DNA from: Clostridia bacterium
Lineage (GTDB): Bacteria > Bacillota > Clostridia > Oscillospirales > CAG-272
Assembly (NCBI GenBank): GCA_017621695.1
Contig: JAGASP010000033.1
Coordinates: 1-55,094, forward strand
Direction: 5' to 3'
DNA: 55,094 nt
Shown here piece after piece: positions 6,852-10,350 of the stretch. Both the position numbers and the translations under genes were made by a program. Numbering within the stretch: the first letter of the stretch is position 1; each line of letters opens with the position of its first letter. The notes under the pieces were generated by a model that was given only the letters and a program-made list of their open reading frames with translations, was not told the origin of the DNA and did no database searches.

Positions 6852-7073
6852 TTAATGCAGGGTTTCGAGATAAGCCGCCATTTTTTCAATGGAATTCAGC
6901 TTGGGGGAAAGCTCGACGAAAAGTCCCAGCTCGTCCTCGATCTTCATTGCCAGTTCAGCGACGTCCAGGGAATCCAGGCCAAGCTCGGTAAAGGGAACGT
7001 CGGTCTTGATTTCTGCGGGGTCGATCTCGCGGTATTCCGCCACGATCTCTACCAGCTTTTGTGTCATATCCAC
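6852..7073 (-). CDS. acpP: acyl carrier protein
   Basis: Carrier for acyl chains in fatty-acid synthesis; 73 residues, mostly helical and acidic. The phosphopantetheine attachment Ser is in GLDSLD (about residue 35). The start is a GTG at 7073: the GGAGG site is 7 nt upstream, good spacing, whereas the in-frame ATG two codons later is less well placed. It has a near-consensus promoter. The rest of a fatty-acid synthesis operon is not adjacent, so this may be a stand-alone or second ACP. Confidence 0.93.
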   Translation of the reverse strand: MDMTQKLVEIVAEYREIDPAEIKTDVPFTELGLDSLDVAELAMKIEDELGLFVELSPKLNSIEKMAAYLETLH

Positions 7074-7200: not shown

Positions 7201-7228
7201 TTGACTTTTACCAAAAATGGTGTATAAT
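7201..7228 (+). promoter_or_regulatory. sigma-A-type promoter for the TIR/LRR gene
   Basis: TTGACT, 16-nt spacer, TATAAT. The expected start site is about 45 bp upstream of the ATG at 7279. Confidence 0.85.
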
Positions 7229-7278
7229 GATACATATATCTTTTTATTTCGACAAAATGACCGCACAGGAGAAAATTT

Positions 7279-10200
7279 ATGAAGGAAATGCGATGTCTGC
7301 ATTGTTATTCCAATGAATTTTCAGAGCGGAACGGTCACCTGTACTGTGTGTACTGCGGAAGCAAGTACCGACAGCGTCCGGAGGATCAGGAGATCCTTCT
7401 GTCCATGGCGTACAGAGAGCTCCGCTTCATGAATTTTCTGGATGCTGAAAATGCATTTGAGGACATCATCAGTCGGCACCCCGATCTGCCCGAGGCGTAC
7501 TGGGGCTGTGTCTGCGCAAGATACGGCATCAAGTTCGAGCAGGACTATACGGGTAAACAGATTCCCACCTGTTGCCTCCCGGCCATCGAAAGCATCCTGG
7601 AGGATCGCTACTACCAAAAAGCGTTGGAGCTCTCGGATGAAGAAACTGCCGAATGGTACAGAGGACAGGGCGAATATCTGGAGCGCGTGCGCAAAACTTG
7701 GATCGAGCGCGCCCGCAAGCTCGCCCCGTATGATGTGTTCATTTCTTACAAGGACAGCGATCAGGAAAAGGGACTGGATCGCACCGAGGACAGCCTCAAG
7801 GCGCAGAGCATCTATACCCACCTTGTGACCCAGGGGTATTCGGTGTTCTACAGCCGCGAGTCGCTGAGCAACGTCATCGGTGAGAAGTACGAGCCCTATA
7901 TTTTCCAGGCGCTCAGCACCTCCCGCGCCATGATCGTCTATGGCTCTACCCCGGAATATATCAATTCCACCTGGGTGAGAAACGAGTGGCAGCGCTACGC
8001 CAAAAAGATGCAGAAGGGCGAGAAGGACAAGGGTTCTCTCATCGTCATCTGCGACGGTTTCTCCCCCAAGGATCTGCCCCCCATGCTCCGCTCCATGCAG
8101 GTGCTCGACGGACGGGATATGTTCTGCTATTCCAAGCTGGATGACCACTTGAAGGGCTTGCTGGCCAAAAAGGTGAGCCCCGAGGAAGAAGCAAAGAAAA
8201 AAGCCGAGGAGGAAGCACGAAAACGCGCAGAGGCCAAGGCGGAAGCCAAGAGACGCGCAGTAGCGGAGGCGAAGAAAAAAGCTGACGCGGAGGCAAAGCG
8301 GAAAGCTGAAGCAGAGGCAAAGCGGAAAGCTGAAGCAGAGGCAAAGAAAAAGGCTGAGGCAAAAGCCAAAAAAGATGCTGCCGTCGCGGCGGAATTGTCT
8401 TCTGAAAAGAAGGAGGGCGGATCTGCCTCCAAAAAGGCGGCTGTGATTGGCATCCTTTCTGCAATCGTGCTTACGGTAGCAATAACTCTTCTTTTCGTTT
8501 TGATGCAAGGTGACAGACGGGAACGTGAGCTCCCTTCGCAGGACGACAGCATTGAGGCAAACGAGGAAAACCCCGAAATGATCGGCAGTAAAGGATTGAA
8601 GTATACTTCTAACGGCGACGGGACTTGCTCTGTGAGCGGTATTGGAACCTGCAAAGATACGAAGATCGTGATTCCTGAGGAATCTCCCGATGGTGATAAG
8701 GTCACGAGAATTGGCAAAGGGGCGTTTACCACCTGCAGTACTTTGACGGGTATCACCATTCCCGATAGCGTCACGAGCATTGGCGAGTGGGCGTTCGCTA
8801 GTTGTAGTGCCCTGACGAGTATTACCATTCCCGACGGTGTCACAAGCATTGGTAACACTGCATTCGCCGATTGCGGTAGTGTGACGAGCATCACCATTCC
8901 CGCCAGCGTTACTAGCATCGGCTATTCGGCATTCAGTCATTGTTACAACTTGACGAGCATCGAGGTAGACGACCGTAATACCGTATATCATGATGCAGGA
9001 AACTGTCTCATAGAAACCGCCGTAAAAACCTTGATTACGGGATGCAAAACCAGCATTATTCCTACCGATGGTAGTGTTACCAGCATTGGCGATGGTGTGT
9101 TCATAGGCTTCGATTTAACGAGCATAGTTATCCCCGACTGTGTGACGAGCATTGGCAAATCCGCATTTTTCGATTGCTCCAGCCTGACGAGTATCACGTT
9201 CAACGGTACGAAGGCTCAATGGGAAACCATAGAAAAAGGGGCAGAATGGGATGAAAATACCGGTAACTACACCGTCCACTGTACCGACGGAGAAATTCCC
9301 AAGAGCGAAGACGTGACGGCGGATGATCCGGAAATTTCCGCCAGCAAAGGTCTTTCATTTACATCTAACGACGACGGAACTTGTTATATCAGCGGCATCG
9401 GCTCCTGCAAGGATACCAACCTGATGATCCCTGCCAATTCTCCTAAAGGAGATAGAGTTACAGGTATCGGCCGGCGTGCGTTCCAAGATTGTAAGAATGT
9501 GACGAGCATCGAAATTCCCGGCAGCGTTACCGGCATCCGCGATTATGCGTTTTCTGGATGCGAAAACTTGACAAGCATCACCATTCCCGACAGCATTACG
9601 AGCATCGGCTACTATGCATTCCAATCTTGCAAGAATTTGAAGAGCATCACCATTCCCGATAGTGTTACCGACATCCGCGATTATGCGTTTGCAGGATGCG
9701 AAAACTTGATGAGCATCACCATTCCTGACAGCGTTACGAGCATTGGTTGGAATGCATTCGAATATTGCAGTAGTCTGGCGAGCATCACCATTCCCGGTAG
9801 CATTAAGAATATTAGCCCCGGTACATTCTGCGGATGTGATAACTTGGCGAGCATTACTATGCCCAACAGCATTACGAGTATTGGTGATAAGGCGTTCTAC
9901 GGTTGCGATCGTTTGACGAGCATCACCATTCCCGATAGTGTAACAAGTATTGGCGCTGCTGCGTTCGGCTACTGTAATAACCTGACAAGTATCACCATTC
10001 CCGATAGTGTAACAAGTATTGGCGCTGCTGCGTTTGACTGTTGCGATAGTCTGACGAGTATCACCATTCCCGACAGTATTACGAGCGTTCTCGCTGGAAC
10101 ATTCCATGATTGCAGTAGCCTGTCGGGTATTACCATTCCTGCTAGCGTTACCAGCATCGGCGATAATGCGTTCGGCTACTGTAATAACCTGACAAGTATC

Positions 10201-10320
10201 ACCTTCCAAGGCACCAAAGCCGAATGGAACGCCATTGAAAAGGACGAAACCTGGTGTATTAACACCGGCTCCTACACCGTCCACTGCACCGACGGCGACA
10301 TCCCCAAATCCGAATCCTGA
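7279..10320 (+). CDS. zinc-ribbon / TIR / transmembrane / leucine-rich-repeat receptor-like protein
   Basis: 1013 residues in a striking order. 1-30: zinc ribbon (C6, C9, C23, C26). ~35-145: helical region, TPR-like. ~148-295: TIR domain opening with YDVFISYKDSD; STWVRNEW places Glu236 where the catalytic Glu of NADase TIR domains sits. ~300-370: Lys/Glu/Ala-rich helix, probably coiled coil. ~388-410: one membrane helix. ~434-677 and ~685-1012: two BspA-type leucine-rich-repeat blocks of 23-residue units (consensus LTSITIPDSVTSIG..AF..C), each opening with a similar cap and ending in QW/EW..IEK...YTVHCTDG. There is no signal peptide; the Lys-rich N-terminal side predicts TIR inside and repeats outside. 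This is a mirror image of animal Toll-like receptors. Function is unknown; signalling, adhesion or defence are possible. AGGAG lies 7 nt before the ATG. Monocistronic, with its own promoter and terminator. Confidence 0.88.
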   Translation: MKEMRCLHCYSNEFSERNGHLYCVYCGSKYRQRPEDQEILLSMAYRELRFMNFLDAENAFEDIISRHPDLPEAYWGCVCARYGIKFEQDYTGKQIPTCCLPAIESILEDRYYQKALELSDEETAEWYRGQGEYLERVRKTWIERARKLAPYDVFISYKDSDQEKGLDRTEDSLKAQSIYTHLVTQGYSVFYSRESLSNVIGEKYEPYIFQALSTSRAMIVYGSTPEYINSTWVRNEWQRYAKKMQKGEKDKGSLIVICDGFSPKDLPPMLRSMQVLDGRDMFCYSKLDDHLKGLLAKKVSPEEEAKKKAEEEARKRAEAKAEAKRRAVAEAKKKADAEAKRKAEAEAKRKAEAEAKKKAEAKAKKDAAVAAELSSEKKEGGSASKKAAVIGILSAIVLTVAITLLFVLMQGDRRERELPSQDDSIEANEENPEMIGSKGLKYTSNGDGTCSVSGIGTCKDTKIVIPEESPDGDKVTRIGKGAFTTCSTLTGITIPDSVTSIGEWAFASCSALTSITIPDGVTSIGNTAFADCGSVTSITIPASVTSIGYSAFSHCYNLTSIEVDDRNTVYHDAGNCLIETAVKTLITGCKTSIIPTDGSVTSIGDGVFIGFDLTSIVIPDCVTSIGKSAFFDCSSLTSITFNGTKAQWETIEKGAEWDENTGNYTVHCTDGEIPKSEDVTADDPEISASKGLSFTSNDDGTCYISGIGSCKDTNLMIPANSPKGDRVTGIGRRAFQDCKNVTSIEIPGSVTGIRDYAFSGCENLTSITIPDSITSIGYYAFQSCKNLKSITIPDSVTDIRDYAFAGCENLMSITIPDSVTSIGWNAFEYCSSLASITIPGSIKNISPGTFCGCDNLASITMPNSITSIGDKAFYGCDRLTSITIPDSVTSIGAAAFGYCNNLTSITIPDSVTSIGAAAFDCCDSLTSITIPDSITSVLAGTFHDCSSLSGITIPASVTSIGDNAFGYCNNLTSITFQGTKAEWNAIEKDETWCINTGSYTVHCTDGDIPKSES
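8764..10206 (+). repeat. 69-bp coding repeats of the leucine-rich-repeat region
   Basis: Each 69-bp unit encodes one 23-residue repeat. Adjacent units around 9925-10040 are almost identical at DNA level (the run ending in GGCGCTGCTGCGTT occurs twice, 69 bp apart), which points to recent expansion by unequal exchange. The codons near 10165-10200 repeat those near 9965-9995. Confidence 0.85.
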
Positions 10321-10323
10321 TAT

Positions 10324-10350
10324 AAACCCACCGCCTCGACGGTGGGTTTT
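10324..10350 (+). terminator. intrinsic terminator of the TIR/LRR gene
   Basis: AAACCCACCG / CGGTGGGTTT, 10-bp stem with a 6-nt loop and a short T run, immediately after the stop codon. Confidence 0.88.

Follow-up and report, generated by a model that had tools for sequence, protein, structure and literature searches.

A clostridial TIR–helix–leucine-rich-repeat protein from a family with a constant N-terminal module and variable tails

We describe a gene of a Clostridia bacterium (assembly GCA_017621695.1, contig JAGASP010000033.1) that encodes a TIR domain, one membrane helix and two blocks of BspA-type leucine-rich repeats (LRRs) in a single chain. It lies in a window of 55,094 nucleotides, by which we mean the whole stretch of DNA that was analyzed. 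The open reading frame (ORF) given in the initial annotation, which had been made from the letters alone, proved exact (7279–10320, forward strand, 1013 residues), and its three principal parts were recovered independently. Pfam assigns TIR_2 to residues 153–280 (E 5.4e-11, 43.5 bits against a cut-off of 28) and LRR_5 to five stretches (E 1.2e-146), with LRR_8 as a secondary match (E 4e-20), and a strict LRR pattern fits fourteen repeats, four at residues 489–613 and ten at 741–948. The helix at residues 389–407 has a hydropathy of 2.83, compared with maxima of 0.72 in residues 1–380 and 1.61 in the LRR part; at 0.72 there is no N-terminal secretion signal, and the chain instead begins with a zinc ribbon and carries its helix internally. 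Although Pfam zinc-ribbon models match only below threshold (best E 0.014), the annotated zinc ribbon is upheld by its four cysteines (C6, C9, C23 and C26, in the arrangement CxxC-x13-CxxC), which are Cys in all of the 153 or 154 family rows that cover them. Ahead of the TIR domain, a stretch resembling TPRs had been overlooked, with TPR matches at about residues 43–84 in relatives and profile matches to TPR structures at 33–84. The coiled coil of the same annotation had to be given up as a signaling element: residues 298–388 comprise 29 Ala, 24 Lys, 18 Glu and 6 Arg, and have no hydrophobic heptad core because three Val and one Leu are the sole large aliphatic residues, while a paralogue (L031) has Lys/Glu/Pro repeats there. 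By its composition, this segment is better called a charged spacer.

The fusion of TIR domain, helix and LRRs is real and recurrent. The genome (2.62 Mb in 127 contigs, 90.6% complete) holds two paralogues that are 61% and 53% identical to the window protein over its N-terminal part. L031 has both the helix and LRRs, and L032 has a long charged linker followed by LRRs without a helix (Kyte-Doolittle maximum of 1.24 after residue 280). Members with LRRs and a helix were also found by homologue search in other genomes (L037, L038, L042, L051, L056–L058, L117). Since a paralogue and members elsewhere share the domain order, a join created by assembly is ruled out. A fourth TIR_2 match in this genome (L203, contig C66, 28.3 bits) lies in an open frame of 1248 residues and is not among the module matches. 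The gene of L031 (1752–6547, contig C87) is followed by the strongest of the genome's three NAD synthetase matches, the other two being short, with a terminator-like repeat between. The apparent 4-nucleotide overlap of these two ORFs was discarded as a link, as the first codons of the second ORF cross the terminator-like inverted repeat and a start about 70 codons further in is likelier; we treat the adjacency as coincidence.

Collecting relatives allowed us to compare the two halves of the protein across the family. We gathered 163 family ORFs, a few of which are one gene in two stretches, and kept the 122 complete ones. At a Pfam threshold of 1e-6, run in batches of 44 and 78 proteins, the tails were assigned to DUF6273 in 29 cases (10/44 and 19/78), RCC1_2 in 18 (8/44 and 10/78), LRR_5 in 16 (13 and 3) and Flg_new in 4 (4/44 and 0/78). 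Custom profiles gave a similar division, with 16 LRR tails (4 of them also Flg_new), 29 DUF6273, 19 RCC1 and 58 unclassified. In all 35 pairs of members from the same locus, the module (first 297 residues) is more alike than the tail, at 53–94% against 23–52% identity, although two of the pairs have tails that can be aligned at no more than 30 positions, and near-identical strains account for some loci (L111, L118). The members of 20 of these 35 pairs differ in the class of their tail or in whether they have a helix. Six close pairs were read along the chain, and in four of them identity drops steeply just after residue 280; the drop follows residue 400 in the L065 pair and, in the L035 pair, whose first member starts past an in-frame stop, position 200 of that piece. 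A quick tree of 119 rows requires at least 36 changes of tail class, or 20 if it is confined to rows whose tail is named; LRR against all other tails takes at least 10, and the helix at least 25. All four counts are estimates because 40 of the 114 inner branches are open. The module of the window protein groups with those of L031 and L032 (SH-aLRT 100), whose tails share 30% and 40% identity with its own. Judged from these comparisons, residues 1–298 form a constant module of Clostridia whose tails are swapped among BspA-type LRRs, RCC1, DUF6273, Listeria-Bacteroides repeats and unclassified sequences, with or without a helix.

The family is widespread but patchy in the genomes searched, in counts that include the window's own genome. 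Of 58 genomes searched with residues 1–300, 12 contain matches (E 1e-3), and a profile from an 18-row alignment (A2), built from a protein search without any motif pattern, finds them in 36/394 genomes of the order (E 1e-20), 21/391 of the class (E 1e-40) and 2/398 of the phylum, namely the window's genome and one other of its class. A single-sequence scan of the named collection with the window protein gave no matches; by pattern, at least 533 of at least 590 matching stretches in it encode relatives, and the best 80 of these at least 533 were kept as 78 loci. These loci belong mostly to metagenome-assembled genomes labelled Clostridia or its subgroups, many from animal guts, and a few are labelled Erysipelotrichaceae, Bacilli or Solobacterium. 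Judged from such relatives, the window probably comes from a gut-dwelling species of Clostridia. The window protein has no match among 50,697 phage records and 72,556 plasmid records, the A2 profile matches two IMG/VR contigs, and resolvase-type recombinases account for 4 of 127 neighboring proteins, so that a mobile element was rejected as the carrier. Similar resolvase-type recombinase ORFs adjoin family genes at L082, L107 and L124. Both IMG/VR contigs are classed as viral: in one (L210), SPFH and TM4 genes lie upstream of the TIR-family gene with a 153-residue ORF between, and the contig may be misclassified or host flank; in the other (L209), a TIR-family ORF (239–2794) is followed 9 bases on by a gene for a zinc-ribbon trypsin-like protease. 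Among the titles and abstract starts listed in a search of open-access literature, none concerns a TIR–helix–LRR architecture or an SPFH–TIR operon, and a large bacterial TIR family with a constant module and changing tails is apparently undescribed. An amoeba protein, TirE, joins RCC1 repeats to two TIR domains, and TirC has a predicted membrane helix (PMC13142454, in part), while in the accessible part of PMC7159879 SPFH occurs in the reference list only.

The residue annotated as lying in the NADase position, Glu236, sits within STWVRNEWQR, in what we take to be the place of the catalytic Glu of TIR NADases. It is Glu in 161 of 161 covering rows and 122 of 122 complete proteins; W232, E236 and W237 are invariant across the 161 rows and N235 and R239 each vary once. 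The 161-row set was partly chosen by the motif, as one of the two locus scan patterns contains WV[KR]NEW, and a few rows are a single gene present in two fetched stretches. The A2 alignment is the cleaner evidence because the scan pattern behind many loci contains the motif, and there the motif residues are likewise invariant in 18 of 18 rows. Against known structures, the A2 profile reaches E 6e-7 with the TIR chain 7ylf (named Toll-like receptor 15 / 2); its matches to plant TIR structures are weak, from E 0.005 upward. As an equivalent Glu is also frequent in TLR1/2/6/10 according to a portion of PMC7075850, we can only infer NADase activity, from the conserved residues.

The orientation of the chain in the membrane was approached through charge. 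In 48 of the 50 complete single-helix members, Lys and Arg are more numerous in the 20 residues before the helix than in the 20 after it, with one tie and one reversal (binomial p 2e-12, relatedness ignored), and all 32 single-helix members with a named tail follow this bias. When one helix is present, the family-wide charge pattern thus predicts a TIR domain inside and a tail outside. The LRR kin of the window protein in its own genome agree. LRR-tail matches occur in 55 stretches, and we sampled stretches on 15 of the 17 further contigs that have such matches (homology by phmmer at 1e-10). Among 20 other LRR ORFs found there (L193–L208), 15 have a signal-peptide-like N-terminus on a lenient score that takes the best of several starts, many of them with a lipobox-like cysteine as judged by eye; of the remaining five, three have a hydrophobic stretch near residue 50, one is cut by a contig end and one has neither. 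Because its kin mostly carry export-type N-termini, the LRR part likely points outward.

Family genes keep recurrent company. Comparing the nearest ORF on either side gave 127 neighbor proteins, whose recurrent clusters are a four-transmembrane (4-TM) protein with 13 members, an AAA protein with 8 and an SPFH protein with 7. With profiles derived from these neighbors, SPFH genes are found in 43 of the 78 named loci (37 of one type and 6 of another), that is, in about half, and the 4-TM gene, TM4, in 29. SPFH is never on the strand opposite the TIR gene, and it lies within 3 kb of that gene in 41/77 loci and within 1 kb in 31/77. By density, 0.44 would be expected in 0.92 Mb, given that 38 genomes of the window's own order (84 Mb) yield 40 Pfam match rows. 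That density is the sole baseline: the 17 control stretches were all taken from the window's genome and, since SPFH has no match there, were set aside as a control for it. Many of the genes are separated by between a few and some tens of bases, which suggests operons. In 20 stretches beyond the named loci (two from the window's genome), SPFH lies near TIR in 7. One of these 7 comes from G009, which belongs to the same genus as the window's genome; its only family member has LRRs and a helix and sits in an SPFH–TM4–TIR array. TM4 is a membrane protein of about 230 residues, usually encoded between the SPFH and TIR genes (L066, L069, L074, L083 and 25 other loci of the 78); the one member scanned, from L083, has no Pfam family. 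In the nearest clade (L051 and L056–L061, 7 loci), the TIR gene stands with AAA genes and genes for two helical proteins of 335 and 195 residues without convincing database match, SPFH in 6/7 and a zinc-ribbon trypsin-like protease in 4/7, possibly a multi-gene membrane system. An ESCRT-III/Vps4 reading of the helical and AAA neighbors was rejected, as no ESCRT-type match appears in the PDB profile or Pfam results, and among the matches listed for the AAA protein in the PDB (60 of 270) all align to the AAA part. PADLOC at 1e-15 matched IetA models in 8 of the 127 neighbors and TRIP13 in 5, in keeping with the 8-member AAA cluster, and five other model names in one protein each. Two post hoc associations uncorrected for relatedness, of helix with SPFH among all members that have a locus (p 0.08, odds ratio 2.1) and among LRR members (SPFH at 8/11 of those with a helix versus 0/5 of those without, p 0.026), were not used.

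Several known systems offer comparisons. Animal Toll-like receptors (TLRs) likewise combine LRRs, a single membrane helix and a TIR domain within the same chain, with TIR in and LRR out if the predicted topology is right. The window protein, however, mirrors their order (TIR–helix–LRR rather than signal peptide–LRR–helix–TIR), has LRR_5/BspA-type repeats, a zinc ribbon and a TPR-like head, lacks an N-terminal signal and belongs to a family with swappable tails. The bacterial TIR NADase and cyclase defense proteins, such as Thoeris ThsB and ThcB4, SpbK, TIR-STING and Cat1, share a TIR domain whose Glu occupies the NADase position, whereas the present family has a membrane helix, a surface-type tail and SPFH and 4-TM neighbors. 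For Thoeris the window protein falls below cut-off, with ThsB at E 0.015 (PADLOC) and ThcB4 at E 7.5e-6 (NCBIfam, 25 bits against a cut-off of 220); no ThsA-type model occurs among the PADLOC matches at 1e-15 for the 127 neighbors of relatives, nor in the Pfam scans of seven other window proteins. Against PADLOC as a whole, the window protein has no strong match, the best being PDC-S66 at E 9e-4 over residues 139–247. BspA-type LRR surface proteins (LRR_5) share the tail domain, and their homologues in this genome are mostly signal-peptide- or lipobox-like, whereas the tail of the window protein follows a TIR module and an internal helix without an N-terminal signal. PASTA-type receptor kinases (PknB/Stk1), with a cytoplasmic output domain, a linker, one helix and external repeats, follow a similar working plan with an unrelated output domain; an NCBIfam PASTA-kinase match (E 0.0039) spans only the linker, helix and tail start at residues 306–450.

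The reading that we favor, and to which we would give an even chance, is that the gene encodes a single-pass TIR receptor with its N-terminus inside and C-terminus outside, in which the LRR part senses a ligand and clustered TIR modules signal, and that it is one member of a constant-module, variable-tail family. At the cell surface, the LRR tail would encounter its ligand or a partner, and this contact would cluster TIR modules at the membrane, where they could cleave NAD+ or make a nucleotide signal. Such an output might slow or kill the cell or change its state. In many relatives, the neighboring SPFH scaffold and 4-TM protein would probably organize the receptors in the membrane, while the orphan copy in the window may act alone or with other partners. 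The constant-module, variable-tail plan could then give different copies different specificities. Ligand sensing, NAD+ chemistry, cell-level output and any defense role are all inferred here. More tentatively, the family as a whole could be repertoire-like, a doubtful proposition at present, with a constant NAD-cleaving TIR module, tails exchanged among LRR, RCC1-propeller, DUF6273 and surface repeats, and organization by SPFH and 4-TM proteins, so that TLR-like receptors would have been assembled several times independently and diversified by tail exchange. Thoeris, SpbK, TIR-STING and Cat1 sense inside the cell, and most animal TLRs carry their sensor across a membrane. A bacterial TIR protein with an outside sensor would link these two designs and make surface sensing by a bacterial TIR testable, and the modular plan together with the SPFH–4TM–TIR gene order offers a concrete system to clone.

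Several points weigh against the receptor reading, among them the open branches of the tree and the sharing of the Glu with TLRs already described. The initially predicted cytoplasmic TIR and external repeats hold as the charge pattern of single-helix members and agree with the export-type LRR kin, but in the window protein the margin is small (4 versus 3 Lys and Arg in the 20 residues on each side, net +1 versus −3). The helix is absent in 5/16 LRR, 13/29 DUF6273, 13/19 RCC1 and 26/58 unclassified members; helix-less LRR, DUF6273 and RCC1 tails should therefore stay inside, and an external LRR is not universal, because LRR relatives without a helix exist, one of them (L032) in the window's genome. 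That genome, at the completeness given above, has no Band_7_1 match, nor any match to the two helical proteins of the nearest clade in searches run without a positive control. The loci are not independent, some being strains of one species (L111, L118). A defense island finds little support in the PADLOC matches of neighbors, so the anti-phage role raised initially gains little from gene company and nothing from phage or plasmid records.

The scarcity of defense-gene company and the absence of phage or plasmid record matches also favor a possible, though rather doubtful, alternative, in which the protein works with SPFH and 4-TM proteins to monitor the envelope or neighboring cells and adjusts metabolism through a TIR signal, with no part in phage defense. 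The SPFH and 4-TM neighbors fit such an envelope-state sensor, as do the AAA and trypsin-like neighbors of the nearest clade. Tail swapping and patchy occurrence (36/394 genomes of the order), however, look more like conflict than housekeeping, and the window's genome keeps three copies without an SPFH match.

BspA-type LRRs are usually adhesin-like. Together with the export-type N-termini of the LRR kin, this would suit a protein whose TIR module only assembles proteins without catalysis, leaving a membrane-anchored adhesin or display protein, and the part of PMC7075850 cited above indicates that Glu conservation is no proof of activity. We consider this unlikely, since W232, E236 and W237 are invariant in the 161 partly motif-chosen rows and in 18/18 rows of A2, and many family members lack a surface-type tail. 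It is similarly improbable that the LRR, RCC1 and DUF6273 tails bind intracellular targets such as phage proteins, with the helix as only a tether. Helix-less members of all three classes, including the paralogue L032, speak for a sensor of this kind, and in staphylococcal Thoeris the TIR proteins enter a complex with the phage major capsid protein (PMC11312562, in part). In the window protein, however, the helix lies between TIR and LRR, the family charge bias places the tail outside, and Listeria-Bacteroides repeats occur only with a helix (4/4 members). A polymorphic-effector plan, in which activity resides in the variable tail and the constant module serves as a head for anchoring or regulation, matches the constant head, swapped tail and steep boundary but is very improbable, as the common recognized tails are repeat or binding domains rather than enzymes or toxins (though 58/122 are unclassified) and no immunity-type neighbor stood out in the neighbor clusters.

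Table 1. Features of the TIR–helix–LRR gene and its flanks, in positions of the window.
Feature	Position	Strand	Basis
Whole gene: zinc ribbon, TPR-like, TIR, charged linker, membrane helix, BspA-type LRRs	7279..10320	+	ATG start, 1013 residues
Promoter-like site TTGACT-16-TATAAT	7201..7228	+	11/12 matches
AGGAG, ribosome-binding-site-like	7267..7271	+	Read off the sequence
Intrinsic terminator	10327..10350	+	Hairpin 10327–10346, 7-bp core stem CCCACCG/CGGTGGG, then TTTT; z −4.8
Zinc-ribbon-like, residues 6–26 (C6, C9, C23, C26)	7294..7356	+	Conserved Cys; Pfam sub-threshold
TPR-like/helical part of the constant module, about residues 38–135	7390..7683	+	TPR matches cover part; remainder putative
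TIR domain, residues 153–280	7735..8118	+	Pfam TIR_2; profile match to TIR chain 7ylf
Glu236 in WV[KR]NEW, putative catalytic residue	7984..7986	+	Family conservation
Charged Ala/Lys/Glu linker, residues 298–388	8170..8442	+	Composition; 24-bp tandem DNA repeat at 8262–8361
Single membrane helix, residues 389–407	8443..8499	+	Kyte-Doolittle 2.83 over 19 residues
First BspA-type LRR block, about residues 431–690	8569..9348	+	Pfam and strict repeat pattern
Second BspA-type LRR block, about residues 700–1013	9376..10317	+	Pfam and repeat pattern; 69- and 138-bp tandem repeats

The gene had been credited with its own promoter and terminator and with no dedicated operon partner (Table 1). The terminator stands out from background, but the promoter-like site is less secure despite its close match, the region holding 6 such sites against 4.6 in shuffles, which is not clearly above chance. 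Solitude holds at the window's locus, where Pfam scans of seven other window proteins revealed no recognized defense or signaling partner, but not across the family, in which SPFH and 4-TM genes are frequent co-directional neighbors. The two nearest downstream genes encode proteins with lipoprotein-like N-termini, the second with FKBP and trigger-factor domains by Pfam. Upstream, a rubrerythrin gene (Pfam) lies on the opposite strand, and an acyl-carrier-protein-like ORF with the motif LGLDSLDVAEL (6852–7073, reverse strand) is divergent from the TIR gene.

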